From a virus, in the IMG/VR virus record IMGVR_UViG_3300009433_000046, positions 1 to 25,814 of that record: 25,814 bases of DNA. The stretch is one strand, 5' to 3'. The position numbers and the translations under genes are program-made. The first letter of the stretch is position 1. Each line of letters begins with the position of its first letter. Shown here one piece after another: positions 1 through 18,441 of this stretch. A model generated the notes under the pieces. It worked only from the letters and a program-made list of their open reading frames with translations, did not search any database and was not told the DNA's origin.

Positions 1-2
1 TA

Positions 3-2570: not shown

Positions 2571-2578
2571 AATGGTAT

Positions 2579-3337: not shown

Positions 3338-3347
3338 CGTTTAGTTG

Positions 3348-6429: not shown

Positions 6430-6970
6430 AATCAAACACTCCTTGTATTTCTGCCCGTTTTTTTTCGACGGTTACGATTGTATCGTTCCTAACTCCTCCA
6501 TGGGGTACTAAAAGAATTTCTAACATATCAAAACCTAAAGTCTTGCCTATGCCCATGGAGTTCCAACCACAACGCACTACGATGGCGTTAGGTTTGCATA
6601 TCCTTGCGATTTGTTTTTTGATCTCTGACCACGGGTTTTGTGTGTCTTCTTGAGTGACTACACGCCCTATCCCGTCGTAGCATTCTTTGATCTGTCTAGA
6701 GCTGTACGGTGGATCAAATAGAACTCCGTCAACTGACTCATCTTCAAACAATGAAAGAAAATGATTAGAGTCGTGATGAAAGTCTGCTTCAAACTCTGGG
6801 TTGATGTCGTTTGTGAACTTCATTAAATGCTTAAAACAACTGTTACGGACATAAGGATCAACCCAAACTCCCTTGGTTATCACCCTGCGAAGGAGGGAGT
6901 TAATGGGTTGAATCCTAAATGTTTCAGAGTTAGGCATAGCCCATTCTCTATGAAACTGTATTTCTGTCAC
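6422..6970 (-). CDS. DNA methyltransferase (N6-adenine or N4-cytosine type)
   Basis: A 182-residue enzyme that transfers a methyl group from S-adenosylmethionine to DNA. DPPYS at residues 86-90 is catalytic motif IV of amino-methyltransferases, and VWVDPYVRNS (35-44) fits the SAM-binding DP-x-x motif. The helix and strand after it (KPNAIVVRCGWNS) match the next core elements. No target-recognition domain is obvious and the protein is short, as in many phage orphan methyltransferases. GTG at 6970 overlaps the upstream stop (GTGA). Likely roles are protection from host restriction or marking phage DNA. It overlaps a PD-(D/E)XK gene, so a small modification/nuclease pair is conceivable. Confidence 0.75.
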   Translation of the reverse strand: MTEIQFHREWAMPNSETFRIQPINSLLRRVITKGVWVDPYVRNSCFKHLMKFTNDINPEFEADFHHDSNHFLSLFEDESVDGVLFDPPYSSRQIKECYDGIGRVVTQEDTQNPWSEIKKQIARICKPNAIVVRCGWNSMGIGKTLGFDMLEILLVPHGGVRNDTIVTVEKKRAEIQGVFDFV

Positions 6971-7158
6971 AAAAGTTCTTTAATGTCTTCTGCAATCGGC
7001 CCGTAATGCTGTTCTGCGTAAGCGTCTAAAGCATCCCGTATCATACCTGATCTAGTTTGACCGTTATGTATCGCTAACTGGTCTACCTTAACTAACAAAG
7101 AGTGAGGTATCCGCATAGCAATTAACTGGTCGTTTTTGTCTTTAAGTGGTGTTTCCAT
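6967..7158 (-). CDS. Ribbon-helix-helix DNA-binding protein
   Basis: A 63-residue CopG/Arc-like protein. The frame is open up to 7197, but ATG at 7158 is chosen because AGGAG lies eight bases before it and the upstream gene stops exactly there (TAATG). The beta strand is QLIAMRIPHSLL, followed by helix 1 VDQLAIHNGQ and helix 2 TRSGMIRDALDAYAEQHY, the normal order for this fold, with a 15-residue tail. Such proteins dimerise and bind operator DNA through the paired strands. It sits inside the replication operon and may control that operon. Confidence 0.75.
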   Translation of the reverse strand: METPLKDKNDQLIAMRIPHSLLVKVDQLAIHNGQTRSGMIRDALDAYAEQHYGPIAEDIKELL

Positions 7159-7313
7159 TAATATTTCTCCTGATGTTTTTGCCCGCATGTAGGGCATTTA
7201 TTATTGTTATTCTCTATTACTTTTGAGCCTATGACCCAACCGCAACTACAGCTTATGTAGTACGGTGATTTGGTTCTGAGTTTAGATTTCTTCTGACCGA
7301 AATCATCCCACAC
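7158..7313 (-). CDS. Tiny zinc-ribbon protein
   Basis: A 51-residue protein. GTG at 7313 shares one base with the SSB stop (TAGTG), and its own stop TAA shares one base with the next ATG. This seamless packing is the main sign that it is a gene. It has two knuckles, C22-S-C24-G and C40-PT-C43-G, separated by 15 residues, the pattern of a rubredoxin-like or TFIIB-like zinc ribbon; the rest is basic and polar. It may bind nucleic acid or protein alongside SSB. I do not recognise a named family. Confidence 0.7.
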   Translation of the reverse strand: MWDDFGQKKSKLRTKSPYYISCSCGWVIGSKVIENNNNKCPTCGQKHQEKY

Positions 7314-7717
7314 TAAAACCAGTCCTCATCTTTATCTATTGGCTTACCATCAACTATTGCAGTTTTCCCCTGCCAATCATCTTGCTTAGGCGCTCTAACA
7401 ATCTGAAATAAATCCCAAACGTTACAGTCCCAACCAGTTACAGTTTGCCCGTCTTTGTTCTTGTATTGACGGCTGGTAAATTTGCCTCTAACAGCTATCC
7501 TGCTACCTTTATCTGTGGCTTTAGCTATAGCTTCTGCTAACGCTGTTGACCCATCTCTGGAGTCTTCCCAAATGCTTAACGTTACCCATGTGGTTTCTTC
7601 TTCACCTGTTTTCACAGCTAACGCATTCTCATAAACTGCTTTGCCTGTGCCAGTGACTTTAGGTAGCCACTCTCTGCCTAGGTTTCCCATTTGGAAACCG
7701 ATTCCTTCATTAAGCAT
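7313..7717 (-). CDS. ssb: Single-stranded DNA-binding protein
   Basis: A 134-residue OB-fold protein. Strands are evident in VYENALAVKTGEEETTWVTLSIWED, followed by a helix ALAEAIAKATDKG and SRIAVRGKFTSRQYKNKDG, the usual SSB order. The C-terminus ends DEDWF, the acidic tip with a terminal aromatic that SSBs use to recruit partner proteins. It would coat exposed strands made by the neighbouring exonuclease and replication machinery. It overlaps the upstream gene by eight bases. Confidence 0.8.
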   Translation of the reverse strand: MLNEGIGFQMGNLGREWLPKVTGTGKAVYENALAVKTGEEETTWVTLSIWEDSRDGSTALAEAIAKATDKGSRIAVRGKFTSRQYKNKDGQTVTGWDCNVWDLFQIVRAPKQDDWQGKTAIVDGKPIDKDEDWF

Positions 7718-7946
7718 TTTGTTGCTCCTTCATTTCTTGTTGCCATTCTACAAATGTATTGTTGCAATAACTAGTAAGCATCCCTATCCAATCTTGCACG
7801 ATATCTAATTTTAAGAGGTTGTTGCATTCTTCTAATTCGTCAGTAGCAATAAAATTACCTTCACCCACCTGAATGTCTGCTTCAAACATCGCCCCTGTAT
7901 CTAACAACCATTCATCTGCATATTCCTGATCTTCTTTACCCAACAT
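7710..7946 (-). CDS. Acidic hypothetical protein
   Basis: A 78-residue, acidic, probably helical protein. ATG at 7946 is preceded by AGGAG seven bases upstream. It overlaps both neighbours (the annealing protein and SSB), so it belongs to the recombination operon. It contains DEWLLDTGAMFEADIQ and a C-terminal helix rich in Gln and Glu. No known motif is visible. A small modulator of the annealing protein or SSB is a guess from position only. Confidence 0.6.
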   Translation of the reverse strand: MLGKEDQEYADEWLLDTGAMFEADIQVGEGNFIATDELEECNNLLKLDIVQDWIGMLTSYCNNTFVEWQQEMKEQQNA

Positions 7947-8352
7947 TATTGTTCTCCTTTTTAATTAATTGTTGATGTAATACATAATACTCATCTGATG
8001 TCCAAAGTGACAACCCCAAACTTAAGCGCATGGCTATTCTTTTTATACCATCGCTGACTGAACTTTTGGCGTTCTGACCTGAGTGCTTACTAGGTCTTTC
8101 CACCTCGCCAATCTCTTGAATCGTGACTTGCTTGCCATCTATGGTAAAAGTGCATTCAAGGATGCAACCCTCAACAATGCCCTCTGGACTTCTGATAAGT
8201 TCTACTATTCGCATGTCAAACGGACCTAAATGCAACAACAAAAATTGTGTTATATCTCCGTGGCTGACATACCTGTCACCCCTACCTGTCGGCTTTACTT
8301 TAACGAAAGTTTCGGGTATTGGTTTTGATAATTTAATTAATTGTTCACTCAA
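7936..8352 (-). CDS. Rad52-like single-strand annealing protein
   Basis: About 138 residues. The start is placed at TTG 8352 (MSEQLIKLSKPIPETF), seven bases after GGAG; a GTG at 8367 is the longer option. The hallmark is the segment KSSVSDGIKRIAMRLSLGL followed by LW, matching the conserved N-x-K-x-A-x-SDA-x-KR-x-A helix and GLG turn of the Rad52/Sak annealing family. An N-terminal YVSHGDITQFL and a central beta region (ILECTFTIDGKQV) fit the same fold. These proteins form rings that anneal complementary strands. A Cas4-like exonuclease is encoded just upstream, so the two form a phage recombination pair. Confidence 0.7.
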   Translation of the reverse strand: MSEQLIKLSKPIPETFVKVKPTGRGDRYVSHGDITQFLLLHLGPFDMRIVELIRSPEGIVEGCILECTFTIDGKQVTIQEIGEVERPSKHSGQNAKSSVSDGIKRIAMRLSLGLSLWTSDEYYVLHQQLIKKENNNVG

Positions 8353-9202
8353 TTTCTTGCTCCTCACCTGCTAATAAATTTGCGTGATACCGTGCAACAT
8401 CAAGCGTTACCTCATCACCGCTAAGGACCGAACACAAATCGTTGTGCCTGCAATACCTACATTGCCATGCACCGCCCTTAGACGGTACACCATACGGGCT
8501 AGGTTTCTCTTGATGTATAAGCTCTCCGTCATCGTTAGGTATAAACGCTACGGGTAAAGCTCCCTGAGCAATGTCCTCCTGTACACTCTTGAACCAACCT
8601 AACTCTAACTCTGCTATCTGGCGTGGTGTCATACCCCACTCTGAGATTTCTTCGTCCATGTGTATGACCCATTCTAAAGTTTCGCCTACTTTTATTTTGT
8701 CACGCCAACTATCTTGTTTCGCAACGTACACAATCCATAACTCATCTACTTCGCAAGCCATTGCATACAAAGCGGATTGTGCAACGTGAGCCATTTTAGG
8801 CAGACCATCTCTAGCCAATCTGAACCCAAAACTAGAGACTGTTTTCAGTTCTAAAAGTCTTTGTGTTTCATCGTCAACCCACACCAAACCGTCACAAGAC
8901 CCTGACAAAGAAACGTTAGTTAACGGAGTTAGATCTAACGCTAGTTCATACTGACCGCTGTACGCCTTCTGGCACGCTTTTTGTATGCCCTCATGGATTG
9001 CGTTACCTATCTCAAACGCTATGAGCGTTGATTTGTCTATAGGGTTTGTCTCTTGATATTTCAAGGCTTCAAACGCTCGTTGCCTCAAGCACGACCCTAC
9101 GCTACTTATTCTGAGAAGCGTATCCTTGGCTGTGGGCTTAGGTTGCCTACTGTCCTCCAAATGCTTTCCGTAAACTTCTGATATTTCTTGTGTGTAATTC
9201 AC
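8345..9202 (-). CDS. Cas4/RecB-like exonuclease with Fe-S cysteines
   Basis: A 285-residue PD-(D/E)XK nuclease. GTG at 9202 has GAGGAGG seven bases upstream. The motifs are in the Cas4/AddB order: C38 (SVGSCLRQR), G-N-A-I-H70, D104 in SGSCDGLV, E118-L-K120, a Q-containing helix (HVAQSALYAM), and a C-terminal cluster C248-x2-C251-x5-C257. C38 with the last three Cys would bind a 4Fe-4S cluster. The family resects DNA ends to expose single strands. With Rad52-like and SSB genes directly downstream and overlapping, a resection and annealing pathway for phage recombination or replication is the clear reading. There is no CRISPR gene nearby. Confidence 0.8.
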   Translation of the reverse strand: MNYTQEISEVYGKHLEDSRQPKPTAKDTLLRISSVGSCLRQRAFEALKYQETNPIDKSTLIAFEIGNAIHEGIQKACQKAYSGQYELALDLTPLTNVSLSGSCDGLVWVDDETQRLLELKTVSSFGFRLARDGLPKMAHVAQSALYAMACEVDELWIVYVAKQDSWRDKIKVGETLEWVIHMDEEISEWGMTPRQIAELELGWFKSVQEDIAQGALPVAFIPNDDGELIHQEKPSPYGVPSKGGAWQCRYCRHNDLCSVLSGDEVTLDVARYHANLLAGEEQEIE

Positions 9203-9750
9203 AGTAAACCCTCCTCAAGATATTGTCTGTGTTCTTTTTCGTGATGTAGCTGGTTGTATCCTTGACACAATTCCACATCGGATTCTTCATCTTCTAATAA
9301 ACGGTAATACGCTTGTTTAGGTCTGTCGCTTATCTTCATCATCTTGGACTCAACGGGATACCCGTTTTCTCGTAGTTCTCTAGCCCTCCTAGCGCCATCT
9401 CCGCCACCTACGACAAGTGATAACTCATCCCTGCTAACCCAACCTTCCCATATTGGGTTGTCGTCGTTTGCTTGCCGTCTATGTGATTTAGTTAATGCAA
9501 TATGTAACGCCCATTGCAAATGATCTAAAACTTTGTTAGCTAGCCTAGAGGTATCGCCCATTTCCCTAGCGCACTGATGCGCTATTTCGCTGTGGTTGTT
9601 ACCTGCTAACGCTTTGGTGTTTTTTAACTCTGGTAGCTCGTTGTGTATTATGTCTACCATTATTTGTTGTGATGCAACGATACTGTTAGCCATTGCATAT
9701 ATCCCTTTCAAATGTGGGTCATCTGTTTCAAATGGTTTTATTTCACTCAT
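9199..9750 (-). CDS. Winged-helix DNA-binding protein
   Basis: A 183-residue protein. The N-terminal 85 residues are helical, with NSIVASQQIMVDIIHNELP and a helix around HQCAREMGDTSRLANKVLDHL. The C-terminal part from WEGWVSRDELSLVVGGGDGARRARELRENGYPVE onward (given here as the region of residues about 101-153) has the helix-turn-helix and wing pattern of small phage regulators, where a Gly-rich turn precedes the recognition helix and NGYPVE starts the wing. The stop overlaps the nuclease start (GTGA). Likely a DNA-binding regulator or replication accessory protein. Confidence 0.55.
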   Translation of the reverse strand: MSEIKPFETDDPHLKGIYAMANSIVASQQIMVDIIHNELPELKNTKALAGNNHSEIAHQCAREMGDTSRLANKVLDHLQWALHIALTKSHRRQANDDNPIWEGWVSRDELSLVVGGGDGARRARELRENGYPVESKMMKISDRPKQAYYRLLEDEESDVELCQGYNQLHHEKEHRQYLEEGLL

Positions 9751-9971
9751 TACAATCCCCTTGTATCTGTGTTGATGTCATTTAATTTAGTGGTAACTAC
9801 TATGTTTCTCGCTGTTAAATCAACCCCAAACCTATGTGAACAATCAATCGCTTCTAAGGCATCGCTGATTATCGTGCCTACTTGTGGCGATTTGCCATCT
9901 TCACGGTGCATGTACTCATGGTCTATGTAGTCTTGATCTAATCTGAGAGTAACTTCAAATTGTATATCCAT
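9750..9971 (-). CDS. Hypothetical small acidic protein
   Basis: A 73-residue protein joined at both ends by one-base stop/start overlaps (TAATG). It begins MDIQFEVTLRLDQDYIDHEY, which could be a beta strand and helix, and contains a single Cys. No known motif. It appears second in the leaderless-promoter operon that leads into the recombination genes. Confidence 0.6.
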   Translation of the reverse strand: MDIQFEVTLRLDQDYIDHEYMHREDGKSPQVGTIISDALEAIDCSHRFGVDLTARNIVVTTKLNDINTDTRGL

Positions 9972-10123
9972 TATTTTTTCCTTTGTTGACTGCGTATCTT
10001 CTGATACTTTTTAAGAGTCCGTAAATCCCTACGGTAGTTCTTGTTATACCAAGTGTAGCATCTGTGTGTGACAAAACCAAACGCAAATGCTATCGCTGTG
10101 GTAACTACTGGGATTAAACTCAT
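9971..10123 (-). CDS. Tiny membrane protein, first gene of the recombination operon
   Basis: A 50-residue protein, MSLIPVVTTAIAFAFGFVTH at the start, giving one membrane span (about residues 3-18), then a strongly basic helix (YRRDLRTLKKYQKIRSQQRKK). Its stop shares one base with the next ATG (TAATG). There is no ribosome site, but a good promoter places the transcript start at or next to the ATG, so it is probably leaderless. The small size, clean overlap and promoter make it a real gene. Function unknown; it could tether DNA or protein to the membrane. Confidence 0.65.
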   Translation of the reverse strand: MSLIPVVTTAIAFAFGFVTHRCYTWYNKNYRRDLRTLKKYQKIRSQQRKK

Positions 10124-10158
10124 GTGATAATGTTATACCCGCCGTATCACAATGTCAA
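10124..10158 (-). promoter_or_regulatory. Promoter of the minus-strand recombination operon (leaderless)
   Basis: On the minus strand TTGACA (10158-10153) is followed by 17 bases, then TAACAT (10135-10130), then six bases and ATG at 10123. The spacing is ideal for a -35/-10 pair and for a transcript starting on the start codon. TATAAC two bases earlier is an alternative -10 at a poorer spacing. It would drive genes from 10123 down to 5496. Confidence 0.65.
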
Positions 10159-10164
10159 GTCAAT

Positions 10165-10386
10165 TCAATAAATTTTATTTATCATACGAAACCGTTGACG
10201 CTCTTTCGGAGTAAGCCCACCCCGAATACCCCATATCTGATCTATCGGTTCCTCAACGAAACTAGCCTGCAAGCACTCATGGACAACATCGCAATTCTGG
10301 CATACGTTCCTTGCCCTGTTAACACTGTCGCCATAAAACAAATCATGACCAACCCCACGACAATTTGCCCTTTCTAACCACGACAT
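10165..10386 (-). CDS. whiB: WhiB-family iron-sulfur regulator
   Basis: A 73-residue protein from ATG 10386 (GTG at 10401 would add five residues). The four Cys of WhiB proteins are present: one near the start (RANCRGVG) and a C-x2-C-x5-C group (VCQNCDVVHEC), followed by the G[VI]WGG-type turn (IWGIRGG) and a basic helix (LTPKERQRFR). WhiB proteins occur in Actinobacteria and their phages, hold a 4Fe-4S cluster and bind the principal sigma factor to change transcription. Here it probably redirects host or phage transcription. No ribosome site is seen; TATTGT lies six bases before ATG, so the mRNA may be leaderless. Confidence 0.88.
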   Translation of the reverse strand: MSWLERANCRGVGHDLFYGDSVNRARNVCQNCDVVHECLQASFVEEPIDQIWGIRGGLTPKERQRFRMINKIY

Positions 10387-10398
10387 AAGAAAACAATA
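10387..10398 (-). promoter_or_regulatory. Candidate leaderless -10 for whiB
   Basis: On the minus strand TATTGT is followed by six bases and the ATG at 10386, the same TANNNT-N6-ATG spacing as at 3360 and 10123. No clear -35. Further upstream, at 10448-10470, the minus strand reads GTCAACAAATTC then GGAGGAGG, like the leaders of the cassette genes, but no usable start codon follows it. Confidence 0.35.
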
Positions 10399-10471
10399 CA
10401 CTAGATTTGCTTTTGTCCTATGGACCCTGTACTCTTAATGGTGAGGTTTCCTCCTCCGAATTTGTTGACAC

Positions 10472-10508
10472 AAGCCCCCCCGTTTCCTATCGGGGGGGTC
10501 TTTCGTTT
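10472..10508 (+). terminator. G/C hairpin terminator
   Basis: CCCCCCCG (10475-10482), an eight-base loop and CGGGGGGG (10491-10498) form a perfect eight-pair stem, followed on the plus strand by TCTTTCGTTTT. The T-rich side is on the plus strand, so it would stop rightward transcripts. Confidence 0.65.
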
Positions 10509-10550
10509 TGCCTACAGGTAAAGTTAAGTCGCCTATAGGTATCGTTGACA

Positions 10551-10643
10551 CGGATTATACGGCGTTCATAGTGAATAAAATTGCGCCGTAGGCGCATCCG
10601 CTAATTAGCCCCTCCGGCGCTTGAGGAGCCAGAAGATAGTGAA
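10551..10643 (+). repeat. Structured intergenic module, copy 1
   Basis: It starts with CGGATT-N5-GCGTTCATAGTGAA (10551-10575) and ends with GATAGTGAA (10635-10643). Inside are hairpin TGCGCC-GTA-GGCGCA (10582-10596, shared with copy 2) and hairpin CTCC (10612-10615) / GGAG (10625-10628) around a nine-base GGCGCTTGA loop, shared with copies 3 and 4. TTGACA at 10545 could be a plus-strand -35 with CATAGT as a -10 at 16 bases. It is followed at once by a strong terminator. Candidate noncoding RNA, operator array or cassette boundary. Confidence 0.7.
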
Positions 10644-10667
10644 AGCCCCGCCGGTTGGCGGGGCTTT
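10642..10667. terminator. Symmetric terminator hairpin
   Basis: AAAGCCCCGCC (10642-10652), a GGTT loop and GGCGGGGCTTT (10657-10667) form a perfect 11-pair stem with A and T ends, so it could act in both directions: for the leftward gene ending at 10726 and for the rightward module. Confidence 0.8.
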
Positions 10668-10725
10668 CGTTAGGTGAATTTGATTGATATATATATTAGG
10701 AATACACTAAATAATATGTAGGCCA

Positions 10726-11103
10726 CTAATTTATTACTTCGATAGTAGCGTCTCTTAATACGTTTTTAATTTCATCCCTAAGAGCTTCATCAATGTATTC
10801 GTTAATTTTATTGCTAACAATTTCTTTGCAATCGCTTTCGCTTACAAATTCATCTGCTGGTTGATAATTGTTGTAATCTAGAAAATTGTTTATAGCATCA
10901 TCGAAATGATTATTTAACAAAAAGTAGTTTTCTAACTCATTCATTATTTCGCTACTGATATCTAGATCATTTAACTCTTTCTCTATTGCCCTATCAATTT
11001 CTTTATTAAGGCCCTCAAGAAAGGCAGTTTCTATATCGCTTATATTTGGTTTTGGTAAATATGGTGCTAACAAATCTGCTAGCGCTTTTAATAATTGTTC
11101 CAT
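10726..11103 (-). CDS. Acidic helical hypothetical protein
   Basis: A 125-residue acidic protein made mostly of helices, with no Trp and a single Cys. It opens MEQLLKALADLLAPYLPKP, then repeats of charged helix (IETAFLEGLNKEIDRAIEKE). ATG at 11103 has AGAGG five bases upstream and lies inside the inverted repeat GTTCCA-T-TGGAAC. The leader is a copy of that at 11426-11450. No known family recognised. Acidic composition would allow DNA mimicry or protein sequestering, which is only a possibility. Confidence 0.65.
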   Translation of the reverse strand: MEQLLKALADLLAPYLPKPNISDIETAFLEGLNKEIDRAIEKELNDLDISSEIMNELENYFLLNNHFDDAINNFLDYNNYQPADEFVSESDCKEIVSNKINEYIDEALRDEIKNVLRDATIEVIN

Positions 11104-11119
11104 TGGAACCTCTTTCTTT
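11095..11119 (-). repeat. Duplicated translation-start leader, copy A
   Basis: These 25 bases are identical to 11426-11450. The block holds the Shine-Dalgarno AGAGG, the start codon and a perfect inverted repeat GTTCCA-T-TGGAAC (11097-11109) centred on the ATG. In mRNA the start codon would sit in a small hairpin or, in DNA, in a protein-binding palindrome. Confidence 0.8.
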
Positions 11120-11128
11120 TTTTGATTA

Positions 11129-11434
11129 CTAGATTTGGTTACGAACTGCGTTTGCTACGTTCGCTGATAGAACTAAGGCATCTTGCAGACTTAGTTCCAC
11201 TTCGCCAATAACTGCTCCTTTTATTTGTACCTTTATGGCAACGACTGGATTTCCTTCTGCATCTTTCCACGCATTAACTCTTCTTGTGCTGATACCAAGT
11301 GGGCTGGCTGGATTGTCCATGCCATTGAATCGGTGATCCTCTATTGCATCTCGTAAAGTTCTTGCGAACTCTTTATTAATTGTTATTTCTTGTGTTGTCA
11401 TGGAATTTCCTTTCGTTGTTAGTATTTGTTCCAT
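11129..11434 (-). CDS. Hypothetical protein with a PilZ-like-sized beta domain
   Basis: A 101-residue protein (90 if the second start is used). ATG 11434 has AGAGG five bases upstream; ATG 11401 (MTTQEITINKEF) has AAAGGA six bases upstream, the same style as the ArdC-like gene, so either may be used. It contains an N-terminal helix (FARTLRDAIEDHR) and then strands (NPVVAIKVQIKGAVIGEVELSL) and a last helix (DALVLSANVANAVRNQ). I do not recognise the family; PilZ is only a size comparison and not a call. A clear promoter lies at 11467-11495. Confidence 0.6.
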   Translation of the reverse strand: MEQILTTKGNSMTTQEITINKEFARTLRDAIEDHRFNGMDNPASPLGISTRRVNAWKDAEGNPVVAIKVQIKGAVIGEVELSLQDALVLSANVANAVRNQI

Positions 11435-11450
11435 TGGAACCTCTTTCTTT
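11426..11450 (-). repeat. Duplicated translation-start leader, copy B
   Basis: Identical to 11095-11119, including the inverted repeat around the ATG (11428-11440). This copy lies directly behind a promoter; copy A lies between two genes, so a local duplication is the simple explanation. Confidence 0.8.
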
Positions 11451-11455
11451 ATTTG

Positions 11456-11495
11456 TTGACAGTTCTAACTTAACACATTTGTATAACAATGTCAA
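11456..11495 (-). promoter_or_regulatory. Cassette promoter with flanking inverted repeat
   Basis: On the minus strand TTGACA (11495-11490), 17 bases, TAAGTT (11472-11467). The spacer contains TTGTTATACA and TGTGTTA as in the promoters at 12000 and 13200. TGTCAA, the exact complement of the -35, recurs at 11461-11456 just after the expected transcript start. Confidence 0.6.
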
Positions 11496-11496
11496 G

Positions 11497-11880
11497 TTAT
11501 ATTTGAGATATTCCTTCCCAATACTCTTTTCTTACACTCTTGAATTTCTTCGACTTAATAAAATCTTTTATTTCTGATCGCAAATAAATACTCAATCTGC
11601 CCCTCTTAATAACTGGCTCTGGAAAGTCATCGTATCTTCTAATCCAATTCGCAATTCTTTGTTGACTAACCATGTGATAATTAGCGATGTCAGTTTGGGT
11701 CCATAGCTGATCTTTGTGTTGTTCTAAGAAATTGCGTATGTCGTTCATAACTCTACGTTTTCTTCTTCTAACCACATTTTCATTGTAAATAGAAACAGGT
11801 AGGTAAAGAAGATCAGTTGTATTGCGCTTACTGGGTGCAATCCGTTTAACATTGTTACTCGCTTTCGCAGTCGTGGCCAT
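11497..11880 (-). CDS. Helix-turn-helix DNA-binding protein
   Basis: About 127 residues. ATG 11880 (MATTAKASNNVKRIAP) is preferred over ATG 11901; neither has a ribosome site, so translation is likely coupled to the zinc-finger gene that overlaps its start. The N-terminal 45 residues are basic (VVRRRKRR). The C-terminal half carries a helix-turn-helix of excisionase/MerR type: WTQTDIANYHMVSQQRIANW with an RRYDDFPEPV wing. Probably a regulator of the cassette genes or an excisionase-like factor. Confidence 0.6.
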   Translation of the reverse strand: MATTAKASNNVKRIAPSKRNTTDLLYLPVSIYNENVVRRRKRRVMNDIRNFLEQHKDQLWTQTDIANYHMVSQQRIANWIRRYDDFPEPVIKRGRLSIYLRSEIKDFIKSKKFKSVRKEYWEGISQI

Positions 11881-11968
11881 AATGAAATTCATTGGCATCA
11901 TCTTCGTCTGTTAAATCAAATACCCTGTTGCATTCTGGGCATTTGGTTTGGGTTACAATCATTATCAT
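11855..11968 (-). CDS. Tiny zinc-finger-like protein
   Basis: A 37-residue protein. ATG 11968 has AGGAG five bases upstream, in a leader like that of the ArdC-like gene, and a promoter lies at 11999-12027. It has C-PE-C near the start (TKCPECNRVFDL), an acidic stretch (TDEDDAN), then H-x2-H-x-C (FHYGHDC), enough ligands for one zinc. Its end overlaps the next gene by about 26-47 bases, depending on the start of that gene. Function unknown, but the expression signals are good. Confidence 0.6.
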   Translation of the reverse strand: MIMIVTQTKCPECNRVFDLTDEDDANEFHYGHDCESE

Positions 11969-11986
11969 TTTGTCTCCTGTGTTTTG

Positions 11987-12032
11987 TTGACTAAGCTAAT
12001 GGTAACGCCTCTGTATAACAGAATCAAGTCAA
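11987..12032 (-). promoter_or_regulatory. Cassette promoter with flanking inverted repeat
   Basis: On the minus strand TTGATT (12027-12022), 17 bases, TACCAT (12004-11999). TTGACT at 12032-12027 and its exact complement AGTCAA at 11992-11987 bracket the promoter. The spacer holds CTGTTATACA as in the ArdC promoter. Confidence 0.6.
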
Positions 12033-12062
12033 TTCGCAAATCGTAACATAAATGTCATAAAT

Positions 12063-12199
12063 CGGATTGCAGTGCGTTCATAGTGAATGGCTGTAGTTGC
12101 CATTCACAAAATACTTTATTGCGCCGTAGGCGCACCCGCACAAAAACACGGCGGGCGGTGCGTTTCCGCACGCCGGAAAATTTTTTTTAGGATAGTGAA
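12063..12199 (+). repeat. Structured intergenic module, copy 2
   Basis: It starts with CGGATT-N5-GCGTTCATAGTGAA (12063-12087) and ends with GATAGTGAA (12191-12199). Hairpins: GTGAATGGC (12083-12091) / GCCATTCAC (12099-12107), which uses the box itself as one arm; TGCGCC-GTA-GGCGCA (12120-12134); GTGCG-TTTC-CGCAC (12158-12171) followed by an A4T8 run. Looks like a plus-strand RNA of about 105 bases ending at the T run. GTAACATAAATGT upstream (12043-12056) is similar to the sequence before copy 4. Confidence 0.75.
12158..12188 (+). terminator. Plus-strand intrinsic terminator in module 2
   Basis: GTGCG/CGCAC stem with a four-base loop, then GCCGGAAAA and eight T residues (12181-12188). It is oriented to stop a rightward transcript although all coding genes here run leftward, which argues for a noncoding rightward RNA. 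Confidence 0.55.
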
Positions 12200-12227
12200 A
12201 AGCCCCGCCATATTTGACGGGGCTTTT
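12198..12227. terminator. Symmetric terminator hairpin
   Basis: AAAAGCCCCG (12198-12207), a ten-base loop and CGGGGCTTTT (12218-12227). It sits 21 bases past the stop of the leftward ArdC-like gene and has A/T ends for action in either direction. Confidence 0.8.
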
Positions 12228-12248
12228 CTCAGGGAATGTATATTTATT

Positions 12249-13160
12249 CTAAGCTACTAATTGTGCATTTGAAACCTTTTCCTCTGCATTTTCTATAATC
12301 CATTGTGACGCTTTCCATGCTTTGGTGGATGCTTTCTGGATAAACTTAGGATCATTGTCTAATGCTTTTAACCATGATTGAATGTAGCTGATGTGGTCTT
12401 GTCGTGGTTTTGATTCTACTCCACGTTGGATCGCTAGAAATGTTGCCCCTAGTTCGGCACATAACTCTTCCTGAGCATAGCCTTTCATATCATCACCAGT
12501 TTCTCTGTTCAGTCTGCTCTCGTGCATTGTGGCATGACAGAACTCGTGTGCCACGGTTCCAAACCATTCTTGCTCTCCATTAAACTGAGTATCCAATGGA
12601 GTCACGATAAGATCATTTGATGGACTGTAGTAAGCCTGTGTTGATGGTTTTTCTATCCATTCAATGTTTGTACTCTGGAACCATTCACGATGGGCTTGAA
12701 CATCAATATCTGGTGAGGCTACTGGTTGCTCGAATACTGGTGCGTCGTCTACTTGGTTAGCGTGGAATACTGAGTACACTCTTGCCACAAATCGCTTTTC
12801 GTAATCTTCGATAGGTGATGGAACTTTGTTGCCAGATACCCATTTTCCGGTTGTCTTGTGAACATAGGAATTTGAATAATAAACTACTGGTATCCCACTT
12901 TCACCTTTACGGACTTGCGCTCCTAGCTTTTCCCATCCTTTATAGGTGGAGAATCTTGAGTCACCGTCTTGCATGTGCATCATTAACCAAAAGCTATTGA
13001 TCCCGCTATAAACTGTTTTGCTTGATGGGTTATGTGGCAGACTGCTTACACCTTGCCAAGGCTTAGTCCAATTCTCTGGATCATTTTTCATAGCTTCAAC
13101 AAATACGGCTGTAATCTTTTCGATTAGAGCACTTCCGCTTAGTTTCTCTCTTGTTGTCAT
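12249..13160 (-). CDS. ArdC-like antirestriction protein (ssDNA-binding + metallopeptidase)
   Basis: A 303-residue protein. The frame is open to 13220, but ATG 13160 (MTTREKLSGS) is chosen: AAAGGA lies seven bases before it and the earlier codons fall in the promoter. Residues 10-130 match the ArdC N-terminal single-strand-binding domain (WTKPWQG, NPSSKTVYSGINSFWL, GAQVRKGESGIPVVYY). Residues 155-280 form a zincin-like peptidase: HEFCH at 205-209 is the HExxH zinc site and E232 or E236 in YAQEELCAELGA supplies the third ligand. ArdC proteins of plasmids and phages protect entering DNA from restriction. It has its own promoter and terminator, like a moron gene. Confidence 0.8.
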   Translation of the reverse strand: MTTREKLSGSALIEKITAVFVEAMKNDPENWTKPWQGVSSLPHNPSSKTVYSGINSFWLMMHMQDGDSRFSTYKGWEKLGAQVRKGESGIPVVYYSNSYVHKTTGKWVSGNKVPSPIEDYEKRFVARVYSVFHANQVDDAPVFEQPVASPDIDVQAHREWFQSTNIEWIEKPSTQAYYSPSNDLIVTPLDTQFNGEQEWFGTVAHEFCHATMHESRLNRETGDDMKGYAQEELCAELGATFLAIQRGVESKPRQDHISYIQSWLKALDNDPKFIQKASTKAWKASQWIIENAEEKVSNAQLVA

Positions 13161-13178
13161 GTTGTTTCCTTTGTTTTG

Positions 13179-13220
13179 TTGACTGGTAGTATGGTAACAC
13201 ATTATGTATAACAGAGTCAA
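13179..13220 (-). promoter_or_regulatory. Promoter of the ArdC-like gene
   Basis: On the minus strand TTGACT (13220-13215), 18 bases, TACCAT (13196-13191), with CTGTTATACA and GTGTTACCAT nearly as in the 12000 promoter. AGTCAA, the complement of the -35, follows at 13184-13179. The leader then reads AACAAAACAAAGGA before the ATG. Confidence 0.65.
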
Positions 13221-13247
13221 GTTATTTCTAAAATAATTTCAGGTAAT

Positions 13248-13277
13248 GCTAGAGCTACAGCTAGAGCTAGAGCTAGA
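13248..13277. repeat. GCTAGA hexamer repeat
   Basis: Five tandem copies of GCTAGA (the second is GCTACA). It is followed by a 14-base palindrome CGAACA-TG-TGTTCG (13279-13292) that runs into module 3. Slippage-type repeat or binding site; no coding role seen. Confidence 0.8.
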
Positions 13278-13290
13278 GCGAACATGTGTT

Positions 13291-13458
13291 CGGATTAGAT
13301 GGCGTTCATAGTGAACAGCTCTGCTGGGCACTCCAGCCCTGCGGCGCTTGAGCAGCCGGATCCAACATGGAATGTTGGCCGCCGTAAATCGGCGGGACCC
13401 GTTAAACTGGCGTGCGGTGCGGTTTACCGCACGCCAAAATTTTTTTGGAGATAGTGAA
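13291..13458 (+). repeat. Structured intergenic module, copy 3
   Basis: It starts with CGGATT-N5-GCGTTCATAGTGAA (13291-13315) and ends with GATAGTGAA (13450-13458). Successive hairpins: CAGC/GCTG just after the box; CTGC (13339-13342) / GCAG (13352-13355) around GGCGCTTGA; CCAACAT-GGA-ATGTTGG (13362-13378); CCGCCG-TAAAT-CGGCGG (13379-13395); then the terminator stem at 13409-13435. The second hairpin differs from copies 1 and 4 by a paired C-G to G-C swap, which keeps the stem. Confidence 0.75.
13409..13446 (+). terminator. Plus-strand intrinsic terminator in module 3
   Basis: GGCGTGCGG (13409-13417), a nine-base loop and CCGCACGCC (13427-13435) form a perfect nine-pair stem, followed by AAAA and seven T residues. 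It is homologous to the end of module 2 and faces right. Confidence 0.7.
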
Positions 13459-13460
13459 CA

Positions 13461-13496
13461 CGAAAGGCCCGCCCCTAGGGTAGGGCGGGCCTTTCG
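13461..13496. terminator. Strong symmetric terminator hairpin
   Basis: CGAAAGGCCCGCCC (13461-13474) pairs perfectly over 14 bases with GGGCGGGCCTTTCG (13483-13496) around an eight-base loop. It lies 27 bases past the stop of the leftward gene at 13524. Confidence 0.8.
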
Positions 13497-13523
13497 GACT
13501 GGCCAGATTTTTGCCGTCTGGAT

Positions 13524-14057
13524 TTATTTAATGAACTCGTGTATGTCTTGCTTGGCTTTCATCTCTCTACCGGTCTCGCTTTTTAGTGTCCACGATTTGA
13601 ACACTTGCATGCGGTAAGTGATTTTTGCTTGACCGTTTTTAAGGTCTAAAGCGTGGTTAATTTCATCCGTAATATCTGCCATCATTGCATAGTAGGCCAT
13701 TTGTACGGCTACAGCGTGGAGAGGGTTTCCGCCTTGGGATAGGTCCAACTCGATTCCAATGTTTTCGTATTCGTTTGGATTGTTTGACCATTCTGTAACC
13801 ACTTTAACGGCTTGCCAGTTCATAAATACATAATGGCTTTGATCTGCTTGTTCACTGATGAAGTCCCACAAATCGACATGTCCGCCGTGGGGGTAGTCTT
13901 CAGTGATCCACCAGTTTTGCAAATCGTCTAGACTGTCGAAGCTGTCTGACATTTCATCAAGAATATGGAACATAGCGTCCTCTGCTAGGTCTCTAATATC
14001 ATTGTGATATGTTTGATGGGTTGGGTCGTAATATGAGTTTGTCTCATCTGCTGACAT
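13524..14057 (-). CDS. Hypothetical acidic cassette protein
   Basis: A 177-residue protein. ATG 14057 (MSADETNSYYDP) has AAAGGA nine bases upstream; the longer open frame to 14117 covers the promoter and is rejected. It is acidic and aromatic-rich in the N-terminal half (DDLQNWWITEDYPHGGHVDLWDF spans residues about 43-66), with a helical C-terminal half (AVAVQMAYYAMMADITDEINHALDL). No known family recognised. It sits in the same cassette style as the ArdC-like gene, with its own promoter and terminator, so an accessory or counter-defence role is possible. Confidence 0.65.
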   Translation of the reverse strand: MSADETNSYYDPTHQTYHNDIRDLAEDAMFHILDEMSDSFDSLDDLQNWWITEDYPHGGHVDLWDFISEQADQSHYVFMNWQAVKVVTEWSNNPNEYENIGIELDLSQGGNPLHAVAVQMAYYAMMADITDEINHALDLKNGQAKITYRMQVFKSWTLKSETGREMKAKQDIHEFIK

Positions 14058-14093
14058 AATTTCTTCCTTTTGTTGTTTCGTTGACATATATAT

Positions 14094-14122
14094 ATTGTAG
14101 CGTATCGCGTTATACATTGCAA
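14094..14122 (-). promoter_or_regulatory. Promoter of the 13524-14057 gene
   Basis: On the minus strand TTGCAA (14122-14117), 17 bases, TACAAT (14099-14094), a near-consensus pair. The leader continues ATATATATATGTCAAC and AAAGGA before ATG 14057. Confidence 0.65.
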
Positions 14123-14198
14123 TTCATTTAGGGGATTATTTTATAAACAGCGAAATTAACGGTGAGCCGTAACATATCTGTAACAATGCGACCACAAT

Positions 14199-14486
14199 GC
14201 GTTCATAGTGAACAGGCACTGTTCACTCCTACCAACAAACAACAAACACGCAACCTGATAGTAACACCAAACCACCAAAAGCAGGATTCCACAAGGCGGC
14301 ACGCCTTTGGTCGCAGTCTGCGGGCGAGACCGCAGAGCGCCCGTAACGGGCGCACCGCTAAGCCCCTCCGGCGTCTGAGGAGGAAGGATAGTGAACACAG
14401 ACGCAAACAACAAACAAGTACACCACAAACCTGCGCAGGAGCCGGAGCGCAAGCGGAGGCGACAAAATTTTTTTTGGCGATAGTGA
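14199..14486 (+). repeat. Structured intergenic module, copy 4 (double length)
   Basis: It starts with GCGTTCATAGTGAA (14199-14212; no CGGATT) and has GATAGTGAA at 14387-14395 and GATAGTGA at 14479-14486. Hairpins: AGTGAACAG-GCA-CTGTTCACT (14207-14227), AAGGCG-GCA-CGCCTT (14293-14307), TCTGCGG/CCGCAGA (14317-14336), GCGCCCG-TAA-CGGGCGC (14337-14353), CCTCC/GGAGG (14365-14383) around GGCGTCTGA. An A4T8 run stands at 14464-14475. Between hairpins the plus strand is almost only A and C. No gene here is supported. Confidence 0.7.
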
Positions 14487-14514
14487 CCCCCCCAGCAAAC
14501 CACAACTAGAAAAA

Positions 14515-14560
14515 CACGGTACCCTACCGGCTTGTCTCGCTAAATTGCAGGGGTACGGTG
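14515..14560. other. Inverted repeat at the strand-composition switch
   Basis: CACGGTACCC (14515-14524) pairs with GGGTACGGTG (14551-14560) with one mismatch around a 26-base loop. GGTACCCTA recurs at 14609-14617. Left of this point the minus strand is rich in G and T; right of it the plus strand is. Such a divergent switch with a cruciform-capable centre is a candidate replication origin. Confidence 0.5.
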
Positions 14561-14587
14561 GCTGGGTTTTGTTTATTTGCGGTTAAT

Positions 14588-14593
14588 TACAAT
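14588..14593 (+). promoter_or_regulatory. Candidate -10 for the rightward operon
   Basis: TACAAT, the same -10 as at 14094-14099 on the other strand, stands just right of the inverted repeat. The -35 region is poor (GGTTTT at 17 bases). If used, the transcript would have a leader of about 670 bases before the first gene. Confidence 0.3.
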
Positions 14594-14640
14594 GGGGGCA
14601 TGTGCCGTGGTACCCTATATACGCCTGTATGCTATGTGTT

Positions 14641-14750
14641 TGTTGGGTGTTTTGGTTTTGTGGGGGTGTTGTGTTTTGTTTGTTTTGTGTGGTTGGTGTT
14701 TTGTGTTTGTTGTGGTGGGTGTTTGTAATGTTTGGGGTATGTTGTGGGGG
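14641..14750 (+). other. G/T-only tract
   Basis: These 110 bases contain no C and only three A. Runs of G (up to six) alternate with T-rich stretches. Open frames through it are low-complexity V/L/C/G/W strings and are not counted as genes. It could form G-rich secondary structure or act as an unwinding or R-loop region. Confidence 0.85.
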
Positions 14751-14772
14751 GTTACAAAAGTTACAAGGTTAC
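14751..14772 (+). repeat. GTTAC repeat cluster A
   Basis: GTTAC at 14751, 14760 and 14768: three direct copies at steps of 9 and 8 bases, directly after the G/T tract. Confidence 0.7.
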
Positions 14773-14820
14773 TTTTATTAGGTTTTTCTTAGAAATTTAG
14801 ATTTGTGTTTGTTTGGGGCC

Positions 14821-14844
14821 GTGACATTCGTGACATTTTGTTAC
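14821..14844 (+). repeat. GTTAC repeat cluster B
   Basis: GTGAC at 14821, GTGAC at 14830 and GTTAC at 14840: steps of 9 and 10 bases. ATATATATAG and a TCTAGAGGG repeat follow. Confidence 0.65.
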
Positions 14845-14924
14845 ATATATATAGAGTCTAGAGGGTCTAGAGGCTTTGTGTTTGTGTTTTTTGTTATATG
14901 TTGTTGTGGGGGGGGTTATTGTTT

Positions 14925-14947
14925 GTTACGGAGGTTACTTTTGTTAC
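14925..14947 (+). repeat. GTTAC repeat cluster C
   Basis: GTTAC at 14925, 14934 and 14943: two exact 9-base steps. A TAGAGGCGC tandem repeat follows at about 14952-14978. Confidence 0.7.
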
Positions 14948-15016
14948 ATGTGTAGAGGCGCTAGAGGCGCTAGAGGCCGGTGTTTGTTAGGGGTTTGGTG
15001 TTTGGGCGTGGATTCC

Positions 15017-15117
15017 CTTGGGAACCTCCCAAGCATTGAGGCTGCTTTGGCCTTGTAATCGCTTTGTCCTGTGCGTTACGCCCCTGTGCGCTCATTCCGG
15101 TTGCGTTGTCACAGGGG
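15017..15117 (+). other. Hairpins in the long leader region
   Basis: CTTGGGA-ACC-TCCCAAG (15017-15033) is a seven-pair stem. CCCCTGTG (15081-15088) pairs with CACAGGGG (15110-15117), with an inner CGC/GCG. They lie in the noncoding run before the first rightward gene. No tRNA arms or known riboswitch were recognised. Confidence 0.55.
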
Positions 15118-15231
15118 TCGGTTACCCTTCTGACGGGTGACTCACCGAGGGTTAGTCGGGCGCTTCTTACAGGCGGTGTTGTGGTTGGTCAAGGGTCCAC
15201 AATCCCCTTTTTGTTTGTTGCCTTGTGTTAG

Positions 15232-15245
15232 GTTACCTTGGTTAC
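15232..15245 (+). repeat. GTTAC repeat cluster D
   Basis: GTTAC at 15232 and 15241, a 9-base step, preceded directly by GTTAG. It lies 25 bases before the first rightward start codon, next to a T7 run, so it may be a regulator site or overlap the transcription start. Confidence 0.6.
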
Positions 15246-15269
15246 GTTTTTTTAGCAAGGAGGTTTTGC

Positions 15270-15368
15270 ATGTTTTTTGAAGATTTTGATGAAGTGTTTG
15301 ATGTTGATGATGATGAGGTGTTAGAGTGTGGGTTAGAGAATCCTGACATTTGTGAAAGTTGTCAGTAA
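15270..15368 (+). CDS. Tiny acidic protein with C-terminal Cys pair
   Basis: A 32-residue protein. A perfect AAGGAGG lies six bases before ATG, the best ribosome site in the window. The N-terminal half is Asp/Glu/Phe/Val (MFFEDFDEVFDVDDDEV) and the end is CGLENPDICESCQ, three Cys in 13 residues. It is the only acidic member of the small-protein run that follows, so it might neutralise or chaperone the basic ones. Function unknown. Confidence 0.6.
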   Translation: MFFEDFDEVFDVDDDEVLECGLENPDICESCQ

Positions 15369-15379
15369 AGGAGATTGTT

Positions 15380-15472
15380 GTGGCGTATGGTTATGGTAAG
15401 GCTATGAAACCTAAGAAAAGGGCTAAACCTCAGAAGAGAAAAGCAAAAAGAAAAATGAAGAGGAGAATGTAA
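15380..15472 (+). CDS. Tiny highly basic protein
   Basis: A 30-residue protein from GTG 15380 with AAAGGAG upstream. It reads MAYGYGKAMKPKKRAKPQKR and then more Lys/Arg; about half of all residues are Lys or Arg. The stop shares a base with the next ATG (TAATG). Such a composition means strong nucleic-acid binding. Similar tiny basic proteins are familiar from marine and freshwater phage genomes, without a known function. Confidence 0.65.
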   Translation: MAYGYGKAMKPKKRAKPQKRKAKRKMKRRM

Positions 15473-15645
15473 TGCCTAAGAAGAAGGGTTTGTACGCTAA
15501 TATTCATGCGAAGCGTAAGCGTATTAAGGCTGGTTCTGGTGAGCGTATGCGTAAAGCGGGTTCTAAGGGTGCGCCTACTGCTAAGGCGTTTAAGCAGTCA
15601 GCTAAGACAGCTAAGAAAAGAAAACCTGCTAAGAAGAAGCGTTAA
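15472..15645 (+). CDS. Conserved small basic phage protein (KGLYANIHAKRKR type)
   Basis: A 57-residue protein, MPKKKGLYANIHAKRKRIKA at the start, followed by a GSGERMRKAGSKGAPTAKAF segment and a Lys/Ala/Arg tail. I recognise this pattern as a small protein found in very many environmental phages, often near terminase or virion genes; I cannot name a function. One-base stop/start overlaps on both sides tie it to its neighbours. Confidence 0.75.
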   Translation: MPKKKGLYANIHAKRKRIKAGSGERMRKAGSKGAPTAKAFKQSAKTAKKRKPAKKKR

Positions 15646-16536: not shown

Positions 16537-18441
16537 GTGGCCTCCGGCAAAGCAACAACTGTAGAGAAATGGGTGCAATACCTTCTTCTAAGACGCACCA
16601 TGAGCATATACAAGGCTGCGAAAGAATCTGGTGTTAATTATCATTCAGCTAGAGACAACGAGTCTGGCAAAGTAAGCACACGAAACTATTTAGTTGCTAA
16701 AGAACAAGTAGACACAATAGGAGTATCTAAAATACCCTCCTATGAAGAGCTACAACCCGAAGCACAAGAGTGTTGGGACAATATCGAAAAATTTGCGCTC
16801 CGATACTTCGGCATTATATTACAGCCATGGCAAATCGAAGCCACGGAACGTATCTTTGATTTATTTGAAACACCTCAAGAGGAGTATGTTGTCATAAATG
16901 CACCGCCGGGCAGCGGTAAGTCAACGTTTTTCGCTAAGGTGCTTCCGGCATGGGCAACAGTCCGCAATAGAGCAATTCGTGGAATGCTCGGTTCCTCGAC
17001 TCAACGTCTCGCTGAATGGTACACACGGCGTTTGAGGGCGGAGTTTGAACGTGAGCATGTTGCCCGTGCCGAACTAAACGATGTCAAAATGGGGTTAGCA
17101 GTTGACGCTGAACGAACCATGCAACAAGACTTTGGTCAATTCAAACCTGACGCTAAAGAAATATGGCGTGCAGAAGCATTCACCATAGTACAACAAGACG
17201 ACATGCCATTATCGCAAAAAGAACCATCATGGTCAGCGTTCGGTATGGATTCCGGTTTTCTAGGTGGTCGTTTTGATCTTATTATTTGGGATGACGTGTG
17301 GGACCCAAGAAAGATGCGTAACTCTGAATCTCGTTCTGACATGTATCGTTGGTGGGATGAGGTAGCTGAAACACGACTAGAACCAAGCGGACTACTAATC
17401 TTACAAGGACAACGCATGGCTTCTGACGACATATACCGCTACGCATTAGACAAATTCGCACCTATAGACGAAGACTACGACGAAGTAGACGAAGATAAAG
17501 TAGACGCAGAAGGCGAACGCAAATACAACCACCTTAAATTCAAAGTACATTACGACGACAGATGCGAACAATTACACAAACCTAGCGACCCAGCATACCC
17601 AGAAGGCTGTTTACTGTACCCACGGCGACTGCCATGGAGAAAAATACGCCACATTAAATCACAAACACCCGACAGATACGAAATTTTGTATCAACAAGAA
17701 GACTCCGACCCTGCATCAGTGCTTGTTGACCCTCTTTGGATTAGTGGAGGAGTCGGAAAAAACGGAGTTGACTATGTTGGTTGTTGGGATAAAGACCGTG
17801 ACTTATGGGAAGTGCCACAGTATTTAGCTGGTGATGTAATGGTTGTAGCGTCTGCTGACCCGTCACCATCTAATTTTTGGGCGTTGCAATGCTGGGCGTA
17901 CTGCCCTGAAAGCGAATATCGTTATTTATTAGAGTCGTACAGGCGCAAAATGGATGCCCCTGCGTTTCTCGATTGGAACCATGACACGCAAAGGTTTACT
18001 GGCGTAGCTGAGGAGTGGTGGCAAATAAGTAATGAGATAGGTAACCCTATTACGCATTGGATAGTTGAAGCTAACGCTGCTCAAAAGTTTATTTTGCAGT
18101 ACGATCATTTTCGGCGTTGGTCAGCTTTGCGAGGTGTGGAACTAGTACCGCATTACACGCACTCTAGAAACAAGGGTGACCCTAAGTATGGCGTGCAAAT
18201 GTTGGCTCCTTTGTATCGTTTGGGTCGTATCCGACTTCCGGGTATGCAAAGAACAGATGCTAGGCCGCATTCTTTGTTGTTAGTCAATGAAGTAACAAAA
18301 TGGAACCCAGAAGGCACAGGGTCTAGAACTGATGACTGTGTGATGGCACAATGGTTTGTAGAACATAATTTAGAAAAAATATATACGCCTATGTCTGAGC
18401 CTATTAGACAATGGCGGCCAACGTGGGTAACAGAAAGTTAG
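16537..18441 (+). CDS. terL: Terminase large subunit
   Basis: A 634-residue DNA-packaging motor. GTG 16537 has AAGGG six bases upstream. Residues about 10-50 look like a small helix-turn-helix (SIYKAAKESGVNYHSARDN). The ATPase has Walker A APPGSGKST (122-130), Walker B LIIWDD (248-253) and motif III LLILQGQR (286-293). The nuclease has D441 (SADPS), E511 (VEANAAQ) and D599/D600 (RTDDCVMAQ). It cuts concatemers and pumps DNA into the prohead through the portal encoded next. No separate small subunit is recognised. Codon endings change from A/C to T/G near residue 390, the ATPase-nuclease junction. Confidence 0.93.
   Translation: MASGKATTVEKWVQYLLLRRTMSIYKAAKESGVNYHSARDNESGKVSTRNYLVAKEQVDTIGVSKIPSYEELQPEAQECWDNIEKFALRYFGIILQPWQIEATERIFDLFETPQEEYVVINAPPGSGKSTFFAKVLPAWATVRNRAIRGMLGSSTQRLAEWYTRRLRAEFEREHVARAELNDVKMGLAVDAERTMQQDFGQFKPDAKEIWRAEAFTIVQQDDMPLSQKEPSWSAFGMDSGFLGGRFDLIIWDDVWDPRKMRNSESRSDMYRWWDEVAETRLEPSGLLILQGQRMASDDIYRYALDKFAPIDEDYDEVDEDKVDAEGERKYNHLKFKVHYDDRCEQLHKPSDPAYPEGCLLYPRRLPWRKIRHIKSQTPDRYEILYQQEDSDPASVLVDPLWISGGVGKNGVDYVGCWDKDRDLWEVPQYLAGDVMVVASADPSPSNFWALQCWAYCPESEYRYLLESYRRKMDAPAFLDWNHDTQRFTGVAEEWWQISNEIGNPITHWIVEANAAQKFILQYDHFRRWSALRGVELVPHYTHSRNKGDPKYGVQMLAPLYRLGRIRLPGMQRTDARPHSLLLVNEVTKWNPEGTGSRTDDCVMAQWFVEHNLEKIYTPMSEPIRQWRPTWVTES

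Follow-up and report, generated by a model that had tools for sequence, protein, structure and literature searches.

Hairpin modules between leftward genes

The window analysed here is the whole of a phage contig of 25,814 bases from IMG/VR (IMGVR_UViG_3300009433_000046), in which a block of leftward early genes lies between rightward virion genes and rightward tail-end genes, and within which we have characterized four noncoding modules that open with a 14-mer, GCGTTCATAGTGAA, contain hairpins and close with a short box, GATAGTGA(A) (Table 1). The original prediction, made from the letters of the window alone, placed the 14-mer at four positions in one direction, and it is present exactly at 10562, 12074, 13302 and 14199, all on the plus strand and far beyond chance (five sites with at most two mismatches against 0.17 expected); CGGATT-N5 was likewise seen ahead of three of the four copies, as claimed. 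All five positions given for GATAGTGA were right and far beyond chance (10635, 12191, 13450, 14387 and 14479, all plus; 0.69 expected, with five reached in no shuffle), although they had been described as module ends and the box at 14387 is internal to module 4, whose layout is box-183 nt-box-92 nt-box. The inner perfect hairpins that had been named were found, including TGCGCC-gta-GGCGCA in modules 1 and 2 and the GGCGYYTGA loop, on a stem of just 4-5 bp, in modules 1, 3 and 4, but hairpins do not occupy every inner segment, module 4 having long A/C-rich linkers. The GCAC-type hairpin and A4T7-8 tract expected in modules 2 and 3 are both there, while the tract in module 4 had been overlooked, and all genes at 10.2-14.1 kb do run leftward, opposite in direction to the modules.

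The terminator-like hairpin of the next leftward gene lies directly behind each of modules 1-3, and all four modules are upstream of a leftward promoter or leader. Modules 2 and 3 have rightward terminator-like ends; self-pairing of the A4T7-8 tract is possible (CCAAAATTTTTTTGG in module 3), and it is therefore not necessarily a terminator T-run. The modules are noncoding, because orthologues differ by 1-, 2- and 50-nt indels, and these frame-breaking differences rule out small proteins encoded within them.

Table 1. Coordinates of the modules and surrounding features of the window
Feature	Coordinates	Strand	Description
Module 1	10551-10643	+	CGGATT-N5-GCGTTCATAGTGAA; TGCGCC-gta-GGCGCA 10582-10596; CTCC-ggcgcttga-GGAG 10612-10628; end box GATAGTGAA 10635-10643
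Terminator-like hairpin right behind module 1	10641-10668		GAAAGCCCCGCC-ggtt-like loop-GGCGGGGCTTTC; serves leftward gene 10726-11103; could act on both strands
Module 2	12063-12199	+	CGGATT-N5-GCGTTCATAGTGAA; GTGAATGGC-tgtagtt-GCCATTCAC 12083-12107; TGCGCC-gta-GGCGCA 12120-12134; GC-rich hairpin about 12150-12174, A4T8, end box GATAGTGAA 12191-12199
Module 3	13291-13458	+	CGGATT-N5-GCGTTCATAGTGAA; GCTGG-gcact-CCAGC; CTGC-ggcgcttga-GCAG 13339-13355; CCAACAT-gga-ATGTTGG 13362-13378; CCGCCG-taaat-CGGCGG 13379-13395, TGGCGTGCGGT-gcggttt-ACCGCACGCCA 13408-13436, A4T7, end box GATAGTGAA 13450-13458
Module 4	14188-14486	+	GCGTTCATAGTGAA 14199; AGTGAACAG-gca-CTGTTCACT 14207; AAGGCG-gca-CGCCTT 14293; TCTGCGG-gcgaga-CCGCAGA 14317; GCGCCCG-taa-CGGGCGC 14337, CCTCC-ggcgtctga-GGAGG 14365, internal box 14387, A4T8, end box 14479
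LexA-type palindrome CGAACATGTGTTCG	13279-13292		matches actinobacterial LexA (SOS) box consensus; overlaps CGGATT opening module 3
Promoter-like TTGCAA-17-TACAAT	14094-14122	-	leftward gene 13524-14117; left of module 4; consensus match only
Promoter-like TTGACT-18-TACCAT	13191-13220	-	ArdC gene; left of module 3; consensus match only
ArdC-type anti-restriction gene	12249-13220	-	PF08401, PF18818; between modules 2 and 3
Cas4/RecE-like exonuclease	8345-9202	-	candidate cassette-exchange machinery
Single-strand annealing protein	7936-8367	-	candidate cassette-exchange machinery
CopG-like protein	6967-7197		
Leftward (early) block	5496-14117		between rightward virion genes and rightward tail-end genes
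Tail-end genes	1-5499		rightward
Terminase	16537-18441		rightward virion gene; neighbours a 588-amino-acid protein; the rightward virion genes also include a giant virion protein

Conservation and structure of the modules

A terminase search yielded 79 related loci (49-100% identity). The test that the original prediction had proposed, copies in related phages, gave a positive result, with copies in close relatives and simpler forms in distant ones. Contig 3300030108_001743 (loci L006, L190 and L271) has a nearly unchanged module 1 together with modules 2 and 4 and the end of module 3, whereas L024 retains module 4 and L005 its end. Module 1 and its L271 counterpart differ by one change in 109 nt (99% identity), while the nearest 60-nt bins in the gene next to it are 66-80% identical. 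In the L271 orthologue of module 2 the loops have changed and the terminal stem is a perfect 11 bp, and promoter and module are retained there while the facing genes differ between relatives; module 3 has its right edge in common with L006 and its last hairpin replaced. In L015 and L069 comparable gaps have the box GATAGTGAA once or twice, and while the outer flanks are conserved, the sequence from box to box differs. A scan of viral contigs with the 14-mer returned mostly chance matches, with recognisable modules only in 3300030108_001743 among the matches listed, and CGGATT-N-GCGTTCATAGTGAA was not found in the GTDB genome collection.

Folding z-scores of the five pieces covering the modules were -2.1 to -3.4. 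Over the 150 nt after the box the mean was -2.03 relative to shuffles, compared with -0.83 upstream and -0.46 in background (p = 0.01 and 3e-4, respectively), and folding strength after the box was equal on both strands. Stems of at least six pairs almost never begin at box bases 1-3 and peak from base 4, and in several divergent phages the box enters a covarying stem, GAT(AGTGAnnn...nnnTCACT), with inner arms CGCC/GGCG (L023), CCCC/GGGG (L028), CACC/GGTG (L074), ACAG/CTGT and ATGGC/GCCAT (window) or AC/GT (L038). Covariation, also put forward as a test, was found as compensatory stem changes, each an individual case judged by eye among few orthologues: AAGGCG/CGCCTT against AAGGCA/TGCCTT in module 4 of close relatives, a T-A pair replaced by G-C in the terminal stem common to module 3 and L271 module 2, and CTCC/GGAG against CTGC/GCAG around the loop GGCGCTTGA. 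The modules are genuine conserved elements, and selection acts on their structure. The density of hairpins is no argument here, because clustered perfect hairpins are no rarity among phages generally (40 in 1.34 Mb of these loci against 96 in 1.90 Mb of control loci); position, conservation and covariation count instead.

Similar strings occur in other phages. In L045 (72% terminase identity) GATAGTGA precedes about seven hairpins, of which four have GCGNNA loops. L294 has an unrelated terminase and the same small basic gene (phrog_7595-like, 74% identity), and between its leftward genes carries at least six hairpins, CTCC-ggcgcttga-GGAG among them, and no box, so that box and hairpin string are separable and it is the modular strings, not the box, that the window lineage has in common with a phage of unrelated terminase.

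These structures bring forward the main rival to the interpretation given below, in which the modules are genes for structured noncoding RNAs. Transcription would run rightward, antisense to the other genes, from beside a leftward promoter to a T-run or shared terminator, and each RNA, presenting several hairpins joined by A/C-rich linkers, would act in trans, e.g. by decoying a host protein involved in defence or RNA binding. The conserved stems with compensatory changes, the folding scores, the rightward terminator-like ends of modules 2 and 3 and the strings in L045 and L294 are consistent with such a gene, as are the recurrent plus-strand loops (GNA, GCGNNA and GGCGYYTGA, several of the form G...A) between A/C-rich linkers. 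However, some of the same hairpins have UACG or UUCG tetraloops when read on the minus strand, so that the G...A loops were dropped as proof of plus-strand folding, and base composition switches near 14.6 kb; moreover, no -35/-10 signature was found upstream of the box, a second box would fall beyond the T-run, the boxes of L015 and L069 have little structure, and Rfam gave no match at the curated cut-off in the window or eight relatives, and none convincing below it. We regard this explanation as somewhat unlikely. Its stronger form, a new class of trans-acting phage RNA (for example a decoy) built of modular hairpin strings with recurrent loops, starting with the GATAGTGA box and lying antisense to early anti-defence cassettes, seems unlikely outright.

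The box in related phages

Statistics on the box were drawn from 29 loci picked by length alone, with the region upstream of terminase taken as the early region. The 14-mer, which the original prediction treated as the repeat, is exact in the window but proved to be a local version of a family-wide core, GATAGTG(A/G), or (T/C)CACTATC in the direction of early transcription, that lies mostly in early-region gaps. In the early regions there are 68 copies of GATAGTG on the plus strand and 7 on the minus strand, where 11.0 and 13.5 would be expected; it ranks first among all 7-mers for strand asymmetry and showed no enrichment in the late region of the same loci (37 and 8; 44 and 17.6 expected). 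These counts are not fully independent, because the 29 loci include a near-identical trio (L071-L073) and some of the sites are orthologues. Across 56 box sites conservation is limited to about 9 bp, YGATAGTGRM, and no -35 signal was found around them. In distant members (L023, L028, L029, L074 and L076) the boxes form pairs, (C/G)ATAGTG-N24-30-GATAGT(A/G), spaced 31-33 bp or about three helical turns, while in the window paired boxes enclose a conserved structured hairpin string.

Several other roles were rejected. As the -10 of a rightward sigma70 promoter the box lacks -35 enrichment, TTGACA-16-CATAGT being present in module 1 alone and its TTGACA missing in L271; nothing is conserved upstream of the minus-strand CACTAT that would suit a T7-like promoter; a terminator follows too few sites (5 of 38) for the box to be a universal terminator part; and the lack of late-region enrichment speaks against a Chi-like genome-wide recombination signal.

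The box could instead be a plain DNA operator for a phage regulator (e.g. the CopG-like protein or a WhiB-associated activator), arranged as a direct-repeat array with the hairpins as incidental terminators or spacers. A short asymmetric site with unconserved surroundings, repeated several times in a genome and facing one way with respect to early transcription, is what an operator would look like, and both the helical spacing of the distant pairs and the LexA-type palindromes that adjoin boxes are in keeping with it. This reading leaves the compensatory changes and conserved hairpins within modules unexplained, spacing is unphased in the window clade and orthology may account for the 31-33 bp spacing elsewhere, and relatives without boxes have the CopG-like protein too. 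We consider this explanation quite unlikely.

Similar sequences were also seen beyond this lineage. In an unrelated phage (L269, IMGVR 3300046786_000486; 2747-4720, minus strand) two arrays of 4-5 direct repeats of TTCACTATCAAA stand immediately upstream of start codons, which is an operator-like use of a similar box. A search for AAATTTTTT-N-GATAGTGAA gave mostly chance matches in coding DNA; three other unrelated phages (L217, L220 and L268) have a look-alike in a gene gap, where AAAAATTTTTTTGGGTGATAGTGAAAATGATAGTGA and a GC hairpin separate a terminator from the promoter that comes next, a layout that resembles module ends. LexA-type palindromes, CGAACNNNNGTTCG, which match the actinobacterial LexA (SOS) box consensus, adjoin modules in the window (Table 1) and in L271, where a second match (reverse complement, 3354) falls just before module 2, and form arrays of 2-4 in distant relatives (L023 5217-5262 and 8558-8635; L074 4980-5009 and 8121-8198; L016 8638-8938). 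Despite these palindromes, 26 phage records yielded neither a LexA/S24 gene nor an integrase.

Modules as possible boundary elements

We tentatively favour, as a possibility rather than a probability, a reading of the modules as orientation-locked boundary or insulator elements between early leftward units that are also used as homology for cassette exchange. The box would be bound by a phage or host factor, box and hairpins together would block read-through and so keep neighbouring units transcriptionally separate, and the modules would supply short homologies at which the single-strand annealing system of the phage swaps cassettes. Support comes from the position between terminator and promoter, the 68:7 asymmetry, the structure that starts at the box and the islands of conservation. 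A role as exchange homologies is suggested because the modules are nearly constant while flanking genes differ, and homology-driven exchange is plausible because the phage has its own annealing system: the same block holds an annealing protein, exonuclease, SSB and resolvase. Moreover, cassettes appear to vary in the population, because contig ends of near-identical phages coincide with boxes or hairpins. L005 begins a single base ahead of GATAGTGA and L024 at CATAGTGA, and L271 stops three bases inside a box, so that three of ten contig ends lie this close to a box (p about 6e-7, by a simple binomial estimate); L006 begins at a hairpin of module 3, and from this start and the end of L271 it follows that the near-identical phage 3300030108_001743 breaks off on both sides of the place of ArdC in the window. 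The original prediction had raised structured RNAs, stoperator arrays and cassette boundaries as options; position, conservation islands and contig breaks best support the last of these.

Several observations weigh against this interpretation. The box-binding factor and the insulating role are both putative. A leftward promoter region at about 11440-11490 has no module, six relatives of the same genome plan (L014, L016, L019, L036, L051 and L081) have no box in the early region, and an intrinsic terminator follows the box at a minority of sites (5 of 38, background 5.5%). Long hairpins should hinder strand annealing, and contig breaks at strong hairpins or homopolymers may be an assembly artefact.

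A further alternative is a role for the hairpins as single-stranded DNA, whether in replication, in entry or in single-strand transposition. GNA triloops form very stable DNA mini-hairpins, and these loops, the one-strand orientation and the composition switch and GT-rich stretch near 14.6 kb would suit such a role. Against it, the Y1 (HUH) transposase PF01797 of IS200/IS605-type or REP/RAYT elements was found in none of 26 phage records with positive controls, although a host enzyme could still serve, and the box is missing from several relatives of the same genome plan. The giant virion protein had no RNA polymerase match, or any other, in Pfam, PHROGs or PDB sequences, which makes N4-type hairpin promoters, and with them an N4-type virion RNA polymerase, seem unlikely; the PF00940 search was uninformative, as its positive controls failed to match. 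We consider this alternative highly improbable.

Regulation in environmental phages of uncultured bacteria, which make up much of viral dark matter, is essentially unknown, and an orientation-locked box that is the most asymmetric early 7-mer across a diverse lineage offers a handle on early-gene control. Together with partly exchangeable hairpin strings beside anti-defence cassettes, it could show how genes are swapped without broken transcription; if the modules are RNAs, they would represent a new structured RNA class.

Genome setting and host

Further products of the leftward block are a methyltransferase, a WhiB-like regulator, the ArdC anti-restriction protein and small unknowns, while its resolvase is RusA-like. 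The hosts of this lineage are probably Actinobacteria, because a WhiB-family gene is present in 19 of the 26 related records. No reliable host was obtained from genome collections, the sole terminase relative in the GTDB collection being in a gammaproteobacterial metagenome-assembled genome, probably as a mis-binned viral contig, and no DNA-level relatives were found among INPHARED phages.

Three other features were noted. A long noncoding stretch (14500-15640), GT-rich on the plus strand, follows a conserved GGGGGCATGTGCCGTGG element (GGGGGTATGTGCCGAGGCAC in far relatives), and the divide between leftward and rightward genes, together with the switch in base composition, points to an origin or late-control region. 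Leftward leaders (e.g. 14085-14095, 13175-13185 and 11985-11995) have (T)GTCAACAA/G near the presumed transcription start, possibly a common 5' leader signal of leftward genes. Finally, the leader of the WhiB-like gene contains a strong hairpin (10474-10505; minus-strand reading ...CCCGATAGGAAACG...) with the loop CGATAGGA(A/C)A, which recurs in L271, L015 (about 5207) and L069 (about 2774) on entirely different, i.e. covarying, stems and is possibly an attenuator or rightward terminator.

Comparison with known systems

Stoperators of cluster A mycobacteriophages are short asymmetric sites, many per genome and intergenic, whose orientation is tied to transcription (PMC9283540). The box has the same orientation lock (68 forward, 7 reverse), which bears out this part of the stoperator option in the original prediction. 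Membership is contradicted by sequence, as stoperators are 13-mer L5-type repressor sites, at which a bound phage immunity repressor halts elongation, whereas the GATAGTGA box is conserved over about 9 bp at 56 sites and coupled to hairpins. In contrast to stoperator phages, the 26 records yielded no integrase or resolvase (PF00589, PF00239) and no S24 repressor. The SAS/ESAS of cluster K mycobacteriophages are asymmetric short repeats in one orientation, half with imperfect inverted repeats and of unknown function, the 13-bp SAS (GGGATAGGAGCCC) lying at translation starts on the coding strand (PMC3203893). Asymmetry and inverted repeats are common to both, but the boxes in the window lie upstream of promoters and antisense to genes.

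An integron attC or other site-specific cassette system would call for a tyrosine (PF00589) or serine (PF00239) recombinase, present in 0 of 26 records, and attC has inverted core sites whereas the boxes are direct repeats; a mobile element with a dedicated enzyme was rejected on the absence of these recombinases and of Y1 from the same records. Large structured RNAs of environmental phages (GOLLD-like, Rfam) are also multi-hairpin noncoding segments, but the inner hairpins of the modules are exchanged rather than held in one fixed architecture. The PeSLs of T4-type phages, reportedly described by Arbiol and colleagues in 2010, are said to be noncoding units of stem-loop and promoter between small exchangeable genes and may mediate modular shuffling. 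Their stem-loop/promoter layout appears similar, whereas in the modules two antisense-oriented boxes enclose a set of differing hairpins and exchange is putative. The T4 PeSLs thus appear closest in layout, and a fair claim by analogy is that the modules may work like stoperators or PeSLs while belonging to neither.

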